Positions 251 through 10,653 of a DNA stretch of 64,000 bases are shown here, piece by piece. The translations under genes were made by a program, and so were the position numbers. The first letter of the stretch is position 1. Each line of letters starts with the position of its first letter. The DNA comes from Xylanibacter muris. Its GTDB lineage: Bacteria; Bacteroidota; Bacteroidia; Bacteroidales; Bacteroidaceae. The DNA lies in NCBI RefSeq assembly GCF_013166605.1, contig NZ_JABKKF010000007.1, positions 1 to 64,000 on the forward strand, read 5' to 3'. The notes beneath the pieces are model-generated. The model was given only the letters and a program-made list of their open reading frames with translations, was not told the origin of the DNA and searched no databases.

Positions 251-1403
251 ATGATCAAGTACCCTACAACAAGAATCGTCTTCGACAGGAAGAAAACCGC
301 GACACAGTCAAAAACAGGGCTCGTACAGGTAGAGATAATGTTCGAACGGAAGAGGAAATACATATCTTCCGGAGTAAAGGTTTTCAAGGGACAGTGGAAC
401 GAAAGGGGCGGAGTTTGCAACAGAATAGACATGCTGGCACTGAACTCACGGATAAACGCTGTGAAGGAGAAGGTGGATGGCTATATAAGAAGTCTGATTG
501 AGAAAAATGTCGCCTTCGATTGGAAGGGCTTTGGAAGATACATCTCCTTTTCTGACAAGGATACTATCAGTTTCGTTGAATGGCTGGAAGAAAGGATAAA
601 CAGCCGTACGGATATCCGGGAGACGACACGCAGAGTGCACCGGAAGCTTATATATGCAATGCACGACTTTAGAAAGATAAGTTTTTTTGGGGATTTGACT
701 AAAGCCAATGTCATGGCCTTTGATGACTATCTTCATGCGAGAGGACAGAGGCAGACAACTGTATATTCATATCATAAGATGTTAAAGACATATATTTATG
801 ACGCGCAATGCGCAGAGATTTGTTGAGGGACAATCCTTATAAAAGTCTCCGTTTCAAGCGTGGGGAAAGCAAAATGGGAAGATTCTTGACTGAAGATGAG
901 ATTAAAATGATAGAAGAGGCCACTATGCCGACTGACAGTATCAACAAAGTTCGTGATCTTTTCCTTTTGCAGTGTTTTACCGGCATGGCTTATGGAGACC
1001 TCATGGATTTTGACTTTAAAAAAGTTGTGGAAAGTAAGTCTCAGTATATCCTTTATGGGAAGAGAAGAAAAACTGGAGTTGATTTTGTTGTGGTGCTCCT
1101 TCCCAAGGCTATGGAAATTCTGAAGAAATATGACTACAAGCTTCCGCGCATCACAAATGAACAATATAATATGTGGCTAAAAATAGTTGCTGATGCATCC
1201 GGAGTAAACAAGCCCATTGCATCGCACTATGAACGTAGGACATGTGGAATGTATCTTCTCAATCACGGATTCCCGATAGAGGTTGTCGTCAAAGTGCTTA
1301 GGCACGCATCAATGAAGACAACAGAGTCCGTATACGCAAAATCATGGGTAAGACTGTTGAGGATGCTTTCAGCAAGCTTATCGGGGATGTCAAAGAAAAG
1401 TGA
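251..1403 (+). pseudogene. Tyrosine recombinase (phage/conjugative-element integrase), broken by two frameshifts
   Basis: The first frame (ATG at 251, stop at 826) encodes the arm-binding and SAM-like N-terminal domains (VFDRKK, 'MFERKRKYISSGVKV', core-binding helices). The catalytic half continues in another frame from about 808, so one base was lost or gained near 808-826. A second shift near 1340, in the AAAA run after the catalytic tyrosine (SVYAK), moves the natural tail MGKTVEDAFSKLIGDVKEK, which ends with a TGA at 1401-1403, out of frame. HxxR (HYERR), LRH and the Tyr are visible; Arg I is not present in FTGMAYGDL, as in several Bacteroides integrases. The gene is inferred to be dead. 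An assembly error at the homopolymer could explain the second shift but hardly both. Confidence 0.85.
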
Positions 1404-1428
1404 AATATGAGAACTGAAGCGTCTCAAA

Positions 1429-1469
1429 AGAATCTGCTGACGATTCTGTTCCAGCAGATTCTTTTTTTA
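1429..1469 (+). terminator. Intrinsic terminator after the recombinase remnant
   Basis: AGAATCTGCTG (1429-1439) pairs perfectly with CAGCAGATTCT (1452-1462), followed by a run of seven T. Confidence 0.85.
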
Positions 1470-1487
1470 TGATATACCATTTTGGCG

Positions 1488-1583
1488 TCATTCCTTTATT
1501 ATCTCATTGAAGTGCCTGCCCACGTATATGCCCATGATGTAGGCCGCAAGGGTGGATATTATCATTATCACCGTCATAATCAT
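1488..1583 (-). CDS. Very small predicted membrane peptide (31 aa)
   Basis: A 31-codon frame starts at the ATG at 1583 and ends at a TGA at 1488-1490. It begins MIMTVIMIISTLAAYIMG, a continuous hydrophobic stretch long enough for one membrane helix, and ends in a short charged tail (GRHFNEIIKE). Its start codon overlaps the stop of the 82-codon gene upstream as ATGA, the usual sign of translational coupling, so the two are probably one transcription unit. Nothing identifies a function. The overlap and helix argue for a real peptide, but the length means chance cannot be excluded. Confidence 0.5.
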   Translation of the reverse strand: MIMTVIMIISTLAAYIMGIYVGRHFNEIIKE

Positions 1584-1828
1584 TCCGTTTCAACAATGTA
1601 TGTCAACACCTCACTATAAAATGAAATGGCGTCAAAATACTCCCTGAACTGCCTGTTCGCGTCCGGGTCGTTCAGGTTGGACAGCTCGCAGGATATCTGT
1701 GTCAGTATCTCGAGGAAGATTCTCTCGTGCGAGGTGCCTTCCTTTGCCATTTCCCTCAATGCCTGTATTCTTCTCTGCGCCTTGTCACTCAGTGTTATGG
1801 CTGGTGCTATATTGTCGTTCGTTGTCAT
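1580..1828 (-). CDS. Small hypothetical protein (82 aa) of the mobile region
   Basis: The protein starts MTTNDNIAPAITLSDKAQRR and is mostly helical and charged, with no signal peptide or membrane helix. It looks like the small accessory proteins carried by conjugative elements in Bacteroidales, but I do not recognise a named family. It is preceded by an A-rich stretch rather than a Shine-Dalgarno sequence, normal for this phylum, and overlaps the next small gene by ATGA. The opposite strand is also open here, but the minus-strand reading has the more protein-like composition. Confidence 0.6.
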   Translation of the reverse strand: MTTNDNIAPAITLSDKAQRRIQALREMAKEGTSHERIFLEILTQISCELSNLNDPDANRQFREYFDAISFYSEVLTYIVETE

Positions 1829-1890
1829 GTCTTTTTGTTTTAAGTTTGTTATTTGTTTGATTTTGTTATTGTTGTCAAGGTTATCAGGGT

Positions 1891-2124
1891 TTAATAATTG
1901 ACTCTCCTGCGCCTTAGTTCCGCTTCAATGGCCTCTCTTATAATTTTAATGTCATTTTTGCTGTTGTACACGTCCTTTTCCAAATTTTCAATAAACTCGT
2001 ACTTGTAAATACGGTCTTTAATCCAATTAGAAAAATCTCTTTTGCTTCCAAGGAAAGCGTGTAGGTCTCTTGCGTTAACGGCTTTCTTACCGTTCTTCTC
2101 GCAGATTGGGATTAGTTCATTCAT
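1891..2124 (-). CDS. AntA/AntB-type antirepressor N-terminal fragment (77 aa)
   Basis: From the ATG at 2124 the protein reads MNELIPICEKNGKKAVNARD followed by LHAFLGSKRDFSNWIKDRI, which is the start of the AntA/AntB antirepressor domain known from temperate phages. Full-length antirepressors continue for another 100 to 200 residues; here the domain breaks off after YEFIEN and ends in an unrelated basic helix rich in Arg and Glu. The frame stays open upstream of 2124, but those residues look like non-coding translation, so 2124 is the likely start. I infer a truncated prophage relic. It may still be made as a short protein. Confidence 0.7.
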   Translation of the reverse strand: MNELIPICEKNGKKAVNARDLHAFLGSKRDFSNWIKDRIYKYEFIENLEKDVYNSKNDIKIIREAIEAELRRRRVNY

Positions 2125-2438
2125 ATCTGTAGCATTTAAAGATATGTTATAGGCAAATAAAAAGCGGTCGCCATATACGCTGCTACAGATAATGGTTCCA
2201 CTCAGCAGAGCGAAAAATCTACGTATAGGCAACCGCCAAATATCTTTAAAGTGTGAGCACAAAAAATGCTCAACTTTTATTGAGCAATTAATCGCTGCCC
2301 CACGTGACATTAAAGTTTGTCGAACTGTTAGCGTTGCAAGGTTACGAATGTTTTTCATACAAGCAAAGAAAAACGTAGAGAAAGTTGTCACAAAAAGAAA
2401 TTTTCCCATTATTAGTTGTTATATAAAGAAACTTTTAT
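2125..2438. other. Non-coding stretch with a long imperfect inverted repeat
   Basis: No convincing gene is seen. GCGGTCGCCATATACG near 2163-2178 is matched by CGTATAGGCAACCGC around 2220-2234, with a second, inner pairing (CTGCT/AGCAG), so the stretch can fold into a long stem. Further along, TGCTCAA and TTGAGCA (about 2271-2286) form a small hairpin. Confidence 0.5.
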
Positions 2439-2446
2439 TATCTTTG
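2416..2446 (+). promoter_or_regulatory. Promoter of the higBA-like operon
   Basis: TATCTTTG at 2439-2446 matches TAnnTTTG, with TTG at 2416-2418 upstream. The toxin ATG follows after only four bases. Confidence 0.65.
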
Positions 2447-2450
2447 CATC

Positions 2451-2777
2451 ATGAAACGTAAGATAAGAACGTATGGTGGGTATTTTGAAGCGTTTATAGC
2501 GACCTTGACGAAGAAAGAGCAAGAAAAGGTGCAATATGGTTTGCTTCTACTAAAGACCCAAGACAGACTTCCCACGAAGTTTGTAAAACTGATTAGGGAT
2601 GGGTTGTACGAGTTGAGGACAGAATACAATGGAAACATTTACCGTGTGTTCTTCATCTTTGATGACGGGGCGATAGTGGTATTATTCAACGGATTTCAAA
2701 AGAAAACACAAAAGACACCAACGTCAGAAATAGAAAAAGCATTAAAAATAATGGAGGCATATTATGGAGACAAATAA
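2451..2777 (+). CDS. higB: RelE/HigB-family toxin (phage Gp49-like)
   Basis: At 108 residues this is the usual size of HigB/RelE-type ribosome-dependent mRNA interferases. The characteristic core is visible: 'GLYELRTEYNGNIYRVFFIFD' across about residues 51-71, then the glycine and lysine-rich 'LFNGFQKKTQKTP' and a C-terminal helix. The order toxin then antitoxin, with a 14-base overlap, is typical of HigBA rather than RelBE. It is expected to cleave translated mRNA when the antitoxin is depleted. The TAnnTTTG promoter sits just before the start. A decayed second copy lies downstream. Confidence 0.88.
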   Translation: MKRKIRTYGGYFEAFIATLTKKEQEKVQYGLLLLKTQDRLPTKFVKLIRDGLYELRTEYNGNIYRVFFIFDDGAIVVLFNGFQKKTQKTPTSEIEKALKIMEAYYGDK

Positions 2778-3069
2778 TCATCAGATTGTGGACTATGATG
2801 CAGTATTGGACGCAAAATTCGGAAAAGAGGGAACTCCCGAACGTGCGAAAGCTGAAAACGAGGCATACGTTTTCTATACCAGCCAAATACTTGTCGAAGC
2901 GAGGAAGATTGCGAAAATGACGCAAGGTGAACTTGCGAAGAAAGTGGGAACGAACAAGTCCTATATATCAAAGATTGAACATGGACTAATCGAGCCAGGA
3001 GTAGGGCTGTTCATGCGCATCATTAATGCATTAGGTCTAAAAATCGACATCGTAAATCCTATAATGTAA
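2764..3069 (+). CDS. higA: HigA-family antitoxin with XRE helix-turn-helix
   Basis: A 101-residue protein overlapping the toxin gene by 14 bases. The N-terminal third contains the linker seen in Bacteroidales HigA ('KFGKEGTPERAKAE'). The C-terminal half is a lambda-repressor-type HTH: 'MTQGELAKKVGTNKSYISKI' followed by a dimerisation helix ending GLKIDIVNPIM. By family knowledge it binds the toxin and represses its own promoter. Its intact HTH contrasts with the frameshifted copy at 3560-3849. Confidence 0.88.
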   Translation: METNNHQIVDYDAVLDAKFGKEGTPERAKAENEAYVFYTSQILVEARKIAKMTQGELAKKVGTNKSYISKIEHGLIEPGVGLFMRIINALGLKIDIVNPIM

Positions 3070-3087
3070 AAAGTCGCGCTACGTGTT

Positions 3088-3236
3088 GTCTAAGGTTTGT
3101 TATGCAAAACCTCTGTGGACATTTCTGCTTCACGACACGGCGTAGTATTTTGATAAATACTTTTCTCGTAAGTTGGTAGGTACAATAAACGCATCCTATT
3201 AAGGTGCGGCATCATATCGCATAACAAATTTTAGAC
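3088..3236. repeat. 149-bp element bounded by inverted repeats
   Basis: GTCTAAGGTTTGTTATGC at 3088-3105 and GCATAACAAATTTTAGAC at 3219-3236 are reverse complements at 16 of 18 positions, with only a central GG/TT mismatch. The triplet GTT flanks both ends, compatible with a 3-bp target duplication. The interior codes for nothing obvious. It sits directly before the second toxin, which lacks a proper start. A MITE is a reasonable reading; mobility is inferred, not shown. Confidence 0.55.
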
Positions 3237-3557
3237 GTTACTTTCATAGATTTTGTGAAGTCGCTTTCCGAAAAGATGCAGGATAAGGTAGTGAAAACCA
3301 TACAATATGTAGAAACGCTTCAGATTGTCCAGGAGAAATACTTGAAGCATATTGAAGATACAAGGGGGCTTTATGAAATTAGAGTGAAATTCGTAAGTGA
3401 CATAATACGTGTTTTTTGCTTCTTTGATGGTGAAAAAATGGTTATCCTATTGAGCGGCTTTCAAAAGAAAACGCAAAAGACACCGAAAAACAAGATAGAT
3501 CGGGCTGTCAGGCTCATGCAAGAATATTTTAACGAAAAGGAAAAAGAAAGGAAATAA
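3225..3557 (+). pseudogene. Second RelE/HigB-type toxin, start region lost
   Basis: The frame is open from 3225 but contains no ATG before residue 8 of the recognisable protein; the only candidate start is a GTG at 3255. Homology to the family seems to extend upstream of that GTG (ILDVTFIDFVKSLSEK), so the true N-terminus is missing or fused to the inverted repeat at 3088-3236. The body keeps the family signature 'GLYEIRVKFVSDIIRVFCFF' and 'LLSGFQKKTQKTP'. It is clearly a diverged relative of the intact toxin 700 bases earlier. It could still be translated from the GTG as a shortened protein. Confidence 0.7.
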
Positions 3558-3559
3558 TT

Positions 3560-3849
3560 ATGGAAACTTACACTATAGAAGATATAAAGAATGAAGTTTA
3601 TGGAAAAACCGGCACTCCGCGTCGAGACAAAATTGAAACCGAGCTTTCCAATCTTCGTGTCGGGCTTCAGATACGCAATGCCCGTGAAGCAAGGAAAATG
3701 ACCCAAAACGAACTTGCTGGAAAGATAGGGAAAGAACGCTTTTTATCTCTAAAGTTGAAAGGGAAGGAAGCAATCTTACTCTTTCCACGCTTTATGACAT
3801 TGTAACAAAAGGGCTGGGAGGAAAGCTTGACATACAGGTTCAACTTTAA
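3560..3849 (+). pseudogene. Second HigA-type antitoxin, frameshifted inside the HTH
   Basis: Starting METYTIEDIKNEVYGKTGTP, the protein follows the HigA pattern to 'MTQNELAGKIGKE', then leaves the frame at the T-run near 3741. Shifting one frame restores 'FISKVEREGSNLTLSTLYDI' and 'KGLGGKLDIQVQL', ending at TAA 3847-3849. The uncorrected frame ends at 3805 with nonsense. The frameshift destroys the recognition helix, so neither DNA binding nor a full fold is expected. It lies two bases after the second toxin, completing a decayed TA pair. Confidence 0.8.
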
Positions 3850-6154: not shown

Positions 6155-6569
6155 CAGTTATTTGATTGTTGAATAAAAAAGGATGTTTTGTCGGACATAC
6201 CGCTACAATGAATATGGATAAGTTACCGTTATTTTCGGAATTTGTCAAGTAATAAAAGCGGCAAAGCCTTTGAAGTTAAGCATTATATCACGTTTGTACC
6301 GTGGCAAAGGCACAAATTAATTAATAACTTAAATAAAGTAGATATGAAGCAATTTATATCATGATTTCCGGTGACTGGAATAAGGCATCCGTTTGAATCA
6401 TATTTTTGTTAAACATCCGTTTTTTATATGTCGCCAATTGGAAATATGGATATTGTTGACAGAATACACCTTAATATTATAATGAGTTAAGATTGTTTAA
6501 CAAAAGGCTATGCAGTGTTTCCGGTGCGGTCTTATCATTATGAAATAAAGTAAAAGCTATAGGAAAGAA
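6155..6569 (+). other. Gene-poor stretch with a second leader-like fold and two micro-frames
   Basis: GCCTTTG (6266-6272) pairs with CAAAGGC (6305-6311); the right arm is preceded by CCGTGGC and followed by AC, as in the 5837-5892 fold. Two very short frames occur, about 14 codons starting MNMDKLPLF and a six-codon MKQFIS at 6343. They look like gene beginnings cut off by deletion. No TAnnTTTG motif is clear before the sigma-factor gene at 6570. Confidence 0.45.
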
Positions 6570-8273
6570 ATGGATTTGAAAGAGCTTGTGGAAAAGGCCG
6601 TTGACGGTGATGCCGGTGCATTTGGAGAGCTGTATAAACGCTATGCTCCCCAGATGAGGTATATCTGCAGCGGTATCCTGAAAAATGACAGAGATGCTGT
6701 GGATGACATTGTTCATGATGCCTTCATCCTGGCCTTTGCCTCTCTTAAGAACCTGAGGAATCCGGATCGTTTTCCGCTATGGATGTCTGCCATCATAAAG
6801 AATGCGTCGTTGAAATATCTGAGGATGAAGAAATCCTCTCCTGTATCTTTGTCGTTATTGCCGGATGATTGTCTTTGTGATATTGAAACACCGAATGTCT
6901 GCGATAACGAGTTGCTGCGCGCGGATATATTTTCGGCTATAGAAAGCCTTCCGGAGGGCTATGGGAAAGTGTTCCGTCTTTCCGTCATGGAAGGGTTTTC
7001 GCATAAAGAGATTTCAGAAATTCTTGGAATCGAGCCTCATAGCTCGTCTTCCCAGTTGTCGAGGGCGAAGGCGATGCTCAGAAAGAAACTTTATGTGTAC
7101 AGAGCGTTGGCGATGGTCTTTCTTGCTTTTGTGGCCGGTCCGTTATACCGGTTTCTTGTCACGGGGGATCAACGCTGTGCGGAAAAGCGTTTTCCGGGCA
7201 TGAGGCATTATGGCATGATTTCACTTGCGGATACAGCAAAGACGGACACCGTGAATGTGGGTTCCGATGGCAGGACTATCTCTTCAGCGTGTGAGAACCT
7301 TATCGCCGGGACAAAGAAAGAATATGATGATACGTGTATCGTGTCTGTTTCAGACACATTGTATATGGCTGATAGCAGTGTCTCTTTTTCCGATACGATT
7401 GATGCCGTTTTGGCAGATTACGATTCAGTCTTGATGACAGATGTCTTTATTCCTGACACATTCCTTTCCTCTGACATTCCTGTGCGGAACAGCGTTGCGA
7501 CGGATGTGAGGCCGAAGAAACCGATGTGGAAAATGGTGCTTGCCGGCTCTGTCGGTCCGGCATTGGCCCGGAATGTATATAAATTGTTGGCTACCGGTGC
7601 GGATATGACAGAGCCTGACGGTCCGGATCAGCCGTCTTTCATTCCGAAATATGTCGGAACGTGGGAGGAATACTATTCATATCTTTCAGAAAACAACAGC
7701 GGCATGTCACCGGATACGCTGACACTGATGGACATAGCCAAGAACAATACGGGACCGATAACCGAATATGAGCGTCATGAGAAGCCTCTCACTGTGGGAC
7801 TGTCGTTCTCAAGACGGCTTTCCGGTAGATGGAGTATAGAGACAGGATTGCAGTATTCTGTTCTTAAATCCGTGTTTTCCATGGGAGGCAGTTCCGATAA
7901 TATAAGGCGTACTCAGAAAATACATTATGCGGGACTGCCGTTGCGCATGTCGTATAATATCGTTTCAGGCGATAAACTGTCCCTATACGGCTCGGCCGGT
8001 GTTGTTATGAACATTCCTGTATACGGAAGTTCCGACAGATACCTTGTTACCGATTCAGTGCCCGTGCGTTTCGACAGCAAGCATGTGGGAATGCCCCTGC
8101 AGTGGTCGGTGAACATAGGCACAGGTCTGCAGTATAAGCTGTCAGGCGGTGTCGGACTATACCTCGAGCCTACATTAAACTGGCATATCCCGTCAGGCGG
8201 ACGTTCCCATACCGTATGGACAGAGCATCCGTTTACCTTCACCGTACCTTTCGGTGTACGGTTTACGTGGTAG
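6570..8273 (+). CDS. ECF sigma factor fused to a transmembrane helix and outer-membrane-type beta-barrel domain
   Basis: Residues about 1-90 are sigma-70 region 2 ('FGELYKRYAPQMRYICSGIL', DDIVHDAF, PLWMSAIIKN). Residues 110-170 are region 4 ('SLPEGYGKVFRLSVMEGFSH', KEISEILGI). A single hydrophobic helix (ALAMVFLAFVAGPLYRFLV, about 178-196) follows, then an acidic Ser/Asp-rich linker of some 200 residues. The C-terminal 170 residues show alternating strands and end in an aromatic (FGVRFTW), like outer membrane barrels. Standalone ECF factors have about 180 residues; 567 shows a true fusion. The sigma half would be cytoplasmic and the barrel half outside the inner membrane. I infer an envelope-sensing, self-anchored sigma factor that may control the two genes downstream. 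How the halves act together is unknown. Confidence 0.85.
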   Translation: MDLKELVEKAVDGDAGAFGELYKRYAPQMRYICSGILKNDRDAVDDIVHDAFILAFASLKNLRNPDRFPLWMSAIIKNASLKYLRMKKSSPVSLSLLPDDCLCDIETPNVCDNELLRADIFSAIESLPEGYGKVFRLSVMEGFSHKEISEILGIEPHSSSSQLSRAKAMLRKKLYVYRALAMVFLAFVAGPLYRFLVTGDQRCAEKRFPGMRHYGMISLADTAKTDTVNVGSDGRTISSACENLIAGTKKEYDDTCIVSVSDTLYMADSSVSFSDTIDAVLADYDSVLMTDVFIPDTFLSSDIPVRNSVATDVRPKKPMWKMVLAGSVGPALARNVYKLLATGADMTEPDGPDQPSFIPKYVGTWEEYYSYLSENNSGMSPDTLTLMDIAKNNTGPITEYERHEKPLTVGLSFSRRLSGRWSIETGLQYSVLKSVFSMGGSSDNIRRTQKIHYAGLPLRMSYNIVSGDKLSLYGSAGVVMNIPVYGSSDRYLVTDSVPVRFDSKHVGMPLQWSVNIGTGLQYKLSGGVGLYLEPTLNWHIPSGGRSHTVWTEHPFTFTVPFGVRFTW

Positions 8274-8347
8274 AAAACGATTTTTCTCATGCAGTCTTTC
8301 CGATGTTGCGGTATCTGTATCGGCAGAAACCATAAAAAAAAGGAAAG

Positions 8348-9412
8348 ATGTATAGTATTGGCGATTACATCCGCAACGGATGTGTTTATCTTAATAATAT
8401 TGTCAGGCCGCGGCATAAGACGCTTGGCTCGCTGATGATATATTCTACGACACGCTGCCAGTCGAGATGCAGGCATTGTTCTATATGGAAGAAAAGGGAA
8501 GAGAACCTCAGTCTTGACGATATAAAGCGGATAATGCGCAGCAAGTGTGTGACGTCAGGGACCGTTGTCGGGCTTGAAGGCGGTGAGTTCGTGCTTCATC
8601 CTCAGATGGAAGAGATAATGGATTGGTTTATGAGGCATCATCCCAACTATACTCTTCTCTCAAACTGTCTTGCTCCGAAAAAGGTGATAGATGTTGTAAG
8701 GAAATACCGTCCGGCTCATCTTTATGTGTCACTTGACGGTGGCAGGGACACATATAAGTATATGCGCGGAAGAGACGGGTATGACAAGGTGATAGAGGTC
8801 GTGGAGGCCGTCAGGGATATTGTGCCGGTGTCGCTGATGTTCTGTCTGTCGCCATGGAACACTTTCGCCGACATGGAGTTTGTCATCAATGTCGCCGGAC
8901 GCTACGGTGTGGACGTGCGTATCGGCATTTACGGCACAATGGAATACTTTGATGTCAGCGAAGGGATGCTTGCCACCGATAAGGGGGACTATGTCCGGCA
9001 GATACCGGCCAATATTCATGGCACGGACGAGAACTATGATTTTGTGGCGCTTTATGACGAATGGCGTAACGGCAATCTCGTGCTCCCGTGCCACAGTATA
9101 TTCAGTGAGCTTGTGATACATGCTGACGGCAATGTGCCGTTATGTCAGAATCTGGATGTGATATTGGGAAACATTCATGACAGGTCTCTCGACGAGATAT
9201 TCAACTCACCGGAGGCCTGCCGGATGCAATGCCGTTATTCGAAGCGGTGCAACGGGTGCTGGATAAACTTCCACAGAAAGTATGACATAATTCTTTTGCG
9301 CAACATGGAGAGGGTGCTGCCGAAGAAAGCCGTAGAATGGTTTTTCGGCAAGTATCAATGGTCGTCGGATACCGGCGGGACATACAGACAATACTTTAAT
9401 AAAATCAAATAA
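8348..9412 (+). CDS. Radical SAM/SPASM-domain protein
   Basis: The 354-residue protein has the radical SAM cluster motif CQSRCRHC (Cys 37, 41, 44), followed by GLEGGEF in the position of the GGEP SAM-binding loop. The C-terminal third is cysteine-rich (PLCQN, ACRMQCRYSKRCNGCW), as in SPASM domains that bind auxiliary Fe-S clusters. Family members modify peptides, mature enzymes or act on sugars and cofactors; the substrate cannot be told here. It lies 74 bases after the sigma/barrel fusion and eight bases before an oxidoreductase gene, suggesting a small operon. An A-rich sequence with GGAAAG precedes the ATG. No precursor peptide gene is seen next to it. Confidence 0.88.
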   Translation: MYSIGDYIRNGCVYLNNIVRPRHKTLGSLMIYSTTRCQSRCRHCSIWKKREENLSLDDIKRIMRSKCVTSGTVVGLEGGEFVLHPQMEEIMDWFMRHHPNYTLLSNCLAPKKVIDVVRKYRPAHLYVSLDGGRDTYKYMRGRDGYDKVIEVVEAVRDIVPVSLMFCLSPWNTFADMEFVINVAGRYGVDVRIGIYGTMEYFDVSEGMLATDKGDYVRQIPANIHGTDENYDFVALYDEWRNGNLVLPCHSIFSELVIHADGNVPLCQNLDVILGNIHDRSLDEIFNSPEACRMQCRYSKRCNGCWINFHRKYDIILLRNMERVLPKKAVEWFFGKYQWSSDTGGTYRQYFNKIK

Positions 9413-9420
9413 AAAACGGA

Positions 9421-10491
9421 ATGTGGAATAATATGAACAACCTGATCAGACGTTATAAGGATATAAGGAACCGGAAACGGCTTGGCAATGTATATGACGG
9501 AGAGTATGCCTTTGTCGGGATAGGGGGACACAGCCTGGATAACCTCTATCCTGTTCTCGGCTATCTTAATGTGAGGTTAAAGTATATCTGTTGTAAGTCA
9601 CCGGACAAGATTCCTGTGATCGAGAATAAATACATGGGTGTCAGGGCCACTGCCGACATCGGTGATATACTGGGAGACGATAATATAAGAGGGGTGTTTG
9701 TCTCTGCGGCTCCTGCCTCGCATTTCGGCATAGCGGTGGAAATATTAAGGAGCGGAAAGTCTCTTTTTATAGAAAAGCCTCCGTGTGCGTCGTTGGAAGA
9801 GCTTTGCCGGCTCATTGATATGGAAAAGATGTATGGCTCTCCTGTGGTGGTTGCCGGTCTGCAGAAGCGTTATTCTCCTGCCGTATCGGTTCTCAGGAAA
9901 AAGCTCAGAGGCTGCTGCAAGGCAACAGGATACAGCCTGAAATATCTTACCGGACTCTATCCGGAGGGTGATGCGCTGACAGATCTGTTTATTCATCCGT
10001 TGGACTTGGTCTGTTTCCTTTTCGGACCGCCGTCAATACAGGGGATTGACATTATAAGAAGCAAAGACGGAGGACAGACCTTTATGCTTATACTTAAACA
10101 TCCGCAGGTCACGGGAATGCTTGAGCTTTCCACGTCATATACATGGGCCGATGGCTGCGAGACGATTACGGTGAACACCGAAAAGGGAGTGTTTGTATTG
10201 ACACAGATGAGGAATCTTGTTTTCAAACCCAGGTATGGATCCGTATTCGGGGTGCCGGTCGAGAAAATAGTACGGTGCAGTCCGTCGGCGGTTACACTGT
10301 TCTCTGAAAACGGCTTTGTTCCGACAATCGCAAACAATCAGCTTTACACTCATGGATATTTTAATGAGCTGAAGACCTTTGTCGATTCCGTTGAGGGCAG
10401 GCGTTCCGAAAACATGTCAGGGCTAAGTTCGTTGACAGACACGTACAGACTGCTTGGCGATATATGTCGTGCAGATAAGAGGGGAATGTGA
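9421..10491 (+). CDS. Gfo/Idh/MocA-family NAD(P)-dependent oxidoreductase
   Basis: The 356-residue protein has a Rossmann start (YAFVGIGGHSLDNLYPVL, about residues 28-45), a strand pattern ending SAAPASHFGIAVEIL, and the family signature FIEKPPC, where the Lys-Pro pair positions the nicotinamide and substrate. The C-terminal part has the sheet used for substrate binding and dimerisation. Such enzymes oxidise or reduce sugars, inositols or nucleotide sugars. It starts eight bases after the radical SAM gene, so the two are probably co-translated and may act on the same molecule. Which molecule is not visible. Confidence 0.85.
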   Translation: MWNNMNNLIRRYKDIRNRKRLGNVYDGEYAFVGIGGHSLDNLYPVLGYLNVRLKYICCKSPDKIPVIENKYMGVRATADIGDILGDDNIRGVFVSAAPASHFGIAVEILRSGKSLFIEKPPCASLEELCRLIDMEKMYGSPVVVAGLQKRYSPAVSVLRKKLRGCCKATGYSLKYLTGLYPEGDALTDLFIHPLDLVCFLFGPPSIQGIDIIRSKDGGQTFMLILKHPQVTGMLELSTSYTWADGCETITVNTEKGVFVLTQMRNLVFKPRYGSVFGVPVEKIVRCSPSAVTLFSENGFVPTIANNQLYTHGYFNELKTFVDSVEGRRSENMSGLSSLTDTYRLLGDICRADKRGM

Positions 10492-10510: not shown

Positions 10511-10653
10511 GGATTGCAAAATGTGCTTATGCTATTCATGAAGTGTATGTAGCCTACATACACTCTGTATTTAGCCTACATACACTCTGTATTTAGGCTA
10601 CATACACTCTGTATTTAGGCTACATACACTTTTAACATTTGCAATCCGTTTTT
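10511..10653. repeat. Palindrome array 1: four units, 22-bp period, inside a larger inverted repeat
   Basis: Cores start at 10546, 10568, 10590 and 10612, exactly 22 bp apart. The first is TATGTAGCCTACATA, the others TATTTAGCCTACATA or TATTTAGGCTACATA, with the spacer CACTCTG repeated between them. The array is enclosed by GGATTGCAAAATGT (10511-10524) and ACATTTGCAATCC (10635-10647), followed by GTTTTTT, so the whole could form a giant hairpin resembling a terminator. Confidence 0.85.

Follow-up and report, generated by a model that had tools for sequence, protein, structure and literature searches.

A Dma3-type sigma factor fused to an outer-membrane barrel: candidate promoter, predicted target operon and proposed release mechanism

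The joining of a sigma factor, a membrane helix and an outer-membrane barrel in one polypeptide is an architecture that is already known, and among the dual membrane-spanning anti-sigma (Dma) proteins it carries the name Dma3. In Bacteroides thetaiotaomicron Dma3 has a sigma domain at its own N-terminus and is the least understood of the Dma proteins, about which very little is known (PMC13088901, which cites Pardue et al. 2024 PNAS for Dma). Deletion of dma1 or of dma2 induces the dma3 locus, bt_2778-2779 (PMC13088901). The domain order of Dma3 is that of the protein studied here, and by the published description its N-terminal sigma domain takes the place of a separate, neighbouring ECF21 sigma gene. 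For Dma3, PMC13088901 gives neither a regulon nor a promoter motif, and neither a mechanism nor the loss of the anti-sigma domain; it is these points that we address for the fused homologues.

The better described relatives are two-protein systems, namely Das1/Dma1 and Das2/Dma2 of B. thetaiotaomicron and EcfO/Reo of B. fragilis and Phocaeicola vulgatus. They share with the fused protein a transmembrane helix, a disordered tether, a C-terminal barrel and a related ECF sigma, and have been proposed to sense the state of the outer membrane or stress upon it (PMC9308784, PMC13114119). The difference is that their barrel protein starts with an N-terminal anti-sigma domain, whereas the fused form is a single protein that lacks this domain and is associated with a different promoter. 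A precedent for the release of a fused sigma by proteolysis is IutY of Pseudomonas putida (ECF243), in which a sigma and a membrane regulator form one chain that is processed via Prc and RseP (PMC8999054). IutY, however, has a fused membrane-bound anti-sigma and belongs to cell-surface signalling for the siderophore aerobactin, while the protein described here has a barrel in the same chain and no FecR-type domain. The actinobacterial groups ECF48, ECF52 and ECF53 also join a sigma to a C-terminal transmembrane regulatory extension (PMC8999054), but there the extension is a zinc-finger anti-sigma and lacks an outer-membrane barrel.

The window analysed here is a stretch of 64,000 nucleotides from Xylanibacter muris. 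The fused gene lies at 6570-8273 on the forward strand (as do the protein domains, the two promoter-like elements and the target genes located below) and encodes 567 amino acids, with neither a stop nor a frameshift in its 567 codons. Matches above the Pfam gathering score were obtained for Sigma70_r2 (residues 21-88), Sigma70_r4_2 (residues 120-170) and OMP_b-brl_2 (residues 401-524). Sigma region 2 (6630-6833; PF04542) is helical in the AlphaFold2 model, and region 4.2 (6927-7079; PF08281) contains a −35 recognition helix, PHSSSSQLSRAK, that begins at residue 156; within this region HSSSSQL-RA is invariant in the alignment of fused homologues. By hydropathy a single transmembrane helix follows at approximately residues 179-197 (7104-7160), with a conserved proline at position 191. 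The open reading frames of the window include no second sigma gene adjoining the fused one; the sigma sits in the same chain. Pfam, hydropathy and AlphaFold2 thus agree with a sequence-only reading of this DNA, which had placed sigma regions 2 and 4, one membrane helix and a barrel on one polypeptide.

Between the membrane helix and the barrel, residues 198-318 (7161-7523) form a periplasmic tether that is disordered by pLDDT and poorly conserved in the alignment. The long acidic linker described earlier is present, but its acidity is mild, with 19 D/E against 12 K/R by our own count. In the full-length AlphaFold2 model, built on a 27-sequence alignment, sigma2 and sigma4 are helical, one continuous helix runs from residue 156 to 202, residues 200-318 are disordered (pLDDT below 50) and strands then continue to the C-terminus. 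Foldseek matched this model in the PDB to SigW, RpoE and AlgU as well as to OmpA. The C-terminal outer-membrane β-barrel is assigned to residues 319-567 (7524-8270) from Pfam, the alignment and the model. A barrel-only model of the C-terminal 258 residues from a 56-sequence alignment gave a pLDDT of 87.4 and a pTM of 0.80, and its best fold matches in the PDB include the barrels of OmpA, OmpW, OprG, Ail and OmpX, so that the domain is modelled as the barrel that had been proposed. In our reading of the model, eight strands are joined by short turns on the periplasmic side, the first surface loop is long and the chain ends in tryptophan. The aromatic final residue picked out earlier is Trp567, conserved in at least 90% of the homologue alignment. 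Two helices in the first extracellular loop, at residues 365-374 and 381-391, are conserved, and W365 and N393 are invariant.

We recovered about 90 full-length fused homologues. A scan of 201 genomes of the same family gave about 40 full-length fused proteins with 31-46% identity to the query. When named genomes were scanned, the 80 best loci were full length in nearly all cases. These 80 come from Prevotella, Segatella, Hallella, Leyella, Paraprevotella, Bacteroides, Parabacteroides (one locus) and Muribaculaceae, so the architecture recurs in Bacteroidales, as the earlier reading had stated. A sequencing error or the chance joining of two genes is excluded by the intact frame and by this number of full-length fused homologues. 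In a class-wide search with few genomes per family, no fused relative was found outside the GTDB family of the window at E<1e-33, and a search for phage-type relatives in PHROGs gave only a generic sigma family match. A few fused genes (L169 on G074:C10, L029/L117, and one on G156:C16) contain a frameshift or a single in-frame TAG or TGA stop and are either pseudogenes or assembly errors. One locus of Bacteroidales type is labelled Roseburia (L049), most likely because the genome bin was mislabelled or contaminated.

To place the fusion in relation to unfused systems we compared sigma domains. In the tree, 92 fused proteins fall into a single clade apart from 23 unfused sigmas, with a support of 96/100, and in 97% of bootstrap trees. 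Because the fused sigma domains are one clade the fusion is old and single, a result that rules out recent repeated fusions. When other ECFs from the window's own genome are included, the sigma domain falls with the Das-type sigmas of NigD-Das-Dma pairs and not with them. The protein of the window sits on a long branch, surrounded by sequences of Prevotella type, and the tree also holds two fused genes of B. faecis (L067 and L079) and relatives from B. salyersiae and Parabacteroides faecis.

The genome of the window also encodes an unfused operon, at C20, arranged like Das/Dma and EcfO/Reo and consisting of a NigD lipoprotein, a 196-aa sigma and a 422-aa barrel protein. The fused barrel is 33% identical to this Dma barrel and OMP_b-brl_2 is found in both. 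Unfused barrel proteins have approximately 45-50 residues ahead of the transmembrane helix, at the position of the Dma anti-sigma domain. A hidden Markov model built from the N-termini of 24 unfused Dma proteins matches all 24 of them and none of the 92 fused proteins at E<0.1, and on this result we rejected a hidden anti-sigma domain within the fused chain. Pfam and NCBIfam scans of the 567-aa protein likewise gave no FecR or other anti-sigma domain. By these profiles the Dma anti-sigma domain is absent from the fused proteins, which is a new observation.

What remains between the recognition helix and the transmembrane segment of fused proteins is a link of 6-14 residues (median 11). A proline lies inside the transmembrane window in 81 of 87 fused proteins and in 2 of 24 unfused ones; this count, like that of motif conservation below, is made on related sequences, and since the fused proteins are one clade these are not independent events. 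An RseP-family M50 protease is encoded in the same genome, and the homologue alignment revealed no conserved site-1 cleavage sequence in the tether. The earlier suggestion that helix and linker act as a built-in anti-sigma module gains from the missing domain, the short link, the transmembrane proline and the RseP/M50 protease, while its second part, release by proteolysis, is something we infer.

A search for a shared promoter motif, as had been proposed, proved informative. A promoter-like element lies at 6511-6541, upstream of the fused gene, with a −35 of TGCAGTGTTT (6511-6520), a 12-base spacer and a −10 of TATC (6533-6536) with the bases that follow, 59 bases before the start at 6570. 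A second one, TGCAGTCTTT-N12-TATCTGTAT, occupies 8290-8320, 58 bases before the start of the next gene at 8348. The same arrangement recurs across fused loci, in which TGCAGTCTTT with a downstream GTATCTAT or GGACTATA is found ahead of the fused gene and again just past it, and the consensus is TGCAGTCTTT-N11/12-GTATCTAT. The median distance from element to start codon is 60 bases for the first site and 61 for the second. Where the downstream scan found no second site, the next gene is mostly convergent; several such loci have the site ahead of the following co-directional gene instead.

The −35 element is present upstream in 76 of 77 named fused loci, mostly exactly and otherwise with 1-2 mismatches and with a spacer of 11-12 bases; we give more weight to strict genome-wide counts, because 229 of 5633 background windows also pass the score used in the 77-locus scan. 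The motif was found on fused loci and its genome-wide specificity was tested afterwards: the strict form TGCAGTNTTT-N8..14-NTATC occurs three times in the 3.35 Mb of the window's own genome, and two of these sites flank the fused gene. The third (at C7) overlaps genes on the other strand and was judged by eye to be a chance match. A looser pattern with at most three mismatches gave 43 matches in this genome, against 10 for the reversed pattern. Across the 201 family genomes the GTATCTAT form of the motif yielded 31 sites, which are spread over 20 genomes and lie almost without exception at fused loci; the reversed control yielded none. The exceptions that we examined were a truncated fused gene, a site before a CotH gene within a fused cluster, and one site for which the sequence piece examined carried no fused gene. 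We also scanned eight named genomes, including two of Bacteroides, and there too most motif sites are at fused loci.

The −10 element varies with the sigma clade. The variant GGAC is found at both sites in 25 of 25 clade-B loci, and genes for radical-SAM targets are preceded by TATC in clade A (11 loci) and by GGAC in clade B (6 loci). Since the same kind of target carries a different −10 in each clade, this element follows the sigma and not the target. Site specificity and this covariation together are strong evidence, from comparison of sequences, that the fused sigma reads these paired sites. We infer that the sites are promoters used by the fused sigma, and that the fused gene would be autoregulated. 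Upstream of six unfused Das-type sigma genes (L137, L138, L139, L141, L151 and L157) we observed TGCAGTATTTTTG-N-ATC, possibly an ancestral form of the fused-clade promoter, and a related TGCAGTATTTTTGCA element is present at some unfused sigma genes. Bacteroides promoters differ from the E. coli type; a perfect E. coli-type TTGACA-16-TATAAT (12/12) at 6456-6483, which shortly precedes the element of the fused gene, may be a chance occurrence.

As the target of the second site we predict the gene for a 354-aa radical SAM/SPASM protein (8348-9412; PF04055 and PF13186), followed in the same operon by a Gfo/Idh/MocA-type oxidoreductase of 356 aa (9421-10491; PF01408). No NCBIfam family scored above its cut-off for this pair (8348-10491). 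Radical SAM/SPASM relatives adjoin the fused gene in about 30 loci, with the oxidoreductase almost always next to them. Elsewhere the second site is followed by a methyltransferase (about 30 loci), a lipoprotein of about 185 aa (17 loci), a FUT8-like protein (5 loci), or a GT2 glycosyltransferase or CotH. The FUT8-like protein is a putative fucosyltransferase of about 350 aa with a Pfam match below the cut-off, which replaces the usual neighbour at L062, L065, L071, L073 and L119. The target genes suggest a role in modifying surface or secreted molecules. The regulon is apparently small, limited to the fused gene and one neighbouring gene or a few. A large dispersed regulon is disfavoured by the finding of just three strict sites in the window's own genome, though a few weak extra sites may exist.

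We propose that the protein is a trans-envelope ECF sigma of Dma3 type that is held off by its own anchor, released by proteolysis and autoregulated, and that drives the adjacent operon, and give this reading a probability of roughly 0.6. The architecture, the missing anti-sigma domain, the single origin, the paired sites, their specificity and the covariation of the −10 with the sigma clade are all seen in the sequences compared. The sigma would lie in the cytoplasm at the inner membrane, with the disordered tether spanning the periplasm and an OmpA-like barrel with its conserved surface loop in the outer membrane. Because the −35-recognition helix runs almost straight into the transmembrane helix, the anchor itself could keep the sigma off through membrane occlusion, in place of an anti-sigma domain. 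The signal sensed by the barrel might be a surface ligand, or damage to the barrel, the LPS or the outer membrane. Such a change would expose the tether or helix to proteases, presumably a site-1 type enzyme and then RseP within the proline-containing helix, and free the sigma. With RNA polymerase the free sigma would then transcribe from TGCAGTCTTT-N11/12-GTATCTAT upstream of its own gene, a positive feedback, and from the site before the adjacent operon, here that of the radical SAM/SPASM protein and Gfo/Idh oxidoreductase.

A sigma that stays attached might also do this work. The state of the barrel or tether would then shift where the sigma stands at the inner membrane, to which RNA polymerase would be recruited for the same promoters. 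Membrane-bound one-component regulators exist, and CadC and ToxR are tethered transcription factors able to act from the membrane. Tethering alone is for this reason no proof of cleavage, and the earlier argument, that a tethered sigma cannot diffuse to DNA unless cleaved, was too strong. A tether that lacks a conserved protease site would also suit an attached sigma, but the link of 6-14 residues and the continuous modelled helix of residues 156-202 leave little room for promoter DNA and polymerase, and the transmembrane proline is a feature of the fused clade (81/87 vs 2/24). The short link is a stronger argument for cleavage than tethering itself, and we regard activity from the membrane as unlikely. 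Still less probable is a separate, unlinked anti-sigma or partner that holds the sigma inactive and is needed for its release, with the fusion merely localising it. ECF factors usually come with a protein inhibitor and the fused chain lacks an anti-sigma domain, yet there is no conserved second gene of anti-sigma type near the fused genes, the neighbours being radical SAM, oxidoreductase, methyltransferase, lipoprotein and CotH genes.

The TGCAGTCTTT repeats might instead be recombination or mobility sites bounding a cassette. They are in direct orientation on either side of the gene and cassettes with differing downstream genes exist, but the spacer is free in sequence and fixed in length at 11-12 bases, both sites lie about 60 bases ahead of a start codon, the site can precede the following co-directional gene when the next gene is convergent, and the −10 variant tracks the sigma clade. 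This makes a mobility function highly improbable. Returning to an anchored sigma released by proteolysis, the fullest version of that reading gives the part of anti-sigma factor to the membrane: the fusion was followed by loss of the domain and joining of the helices, the barrel triggers intramembrane cleavage, and one gene provides a surface-to-promoter pathway in which both the promoter code and a small regulon are private to the sigma. We would put the chances of this version at about even.

With this comparative evidence the fused form gains a candidate promoter and a predicted target operon, together with a proposed mechanism that is concrete. If the mechanism is true, a single polypeptide carries a signal from outside the cell to the gene, with a covalent tether replacing the anti-sigma domain. 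Because the −10 element covaries with the sigma clade, it could also supply Bacteroides with orthogonal promoter/sigma pairs. Two further features of the neighbourhood were observed. Upstream of the fused gene, at 808-3805, an integrase-like open reading frame and two RelE/HigB-like/HTH antitoxin-like pairs were recognised by eye and may be a mobile island. Between the oxidoreductase gene and a convergent Clp ATPase gene, at 10544-10630, there are four copies of a partly palindromic 22-base unit, TGTATTTAGCCTACATACACTC, with a 96% match.
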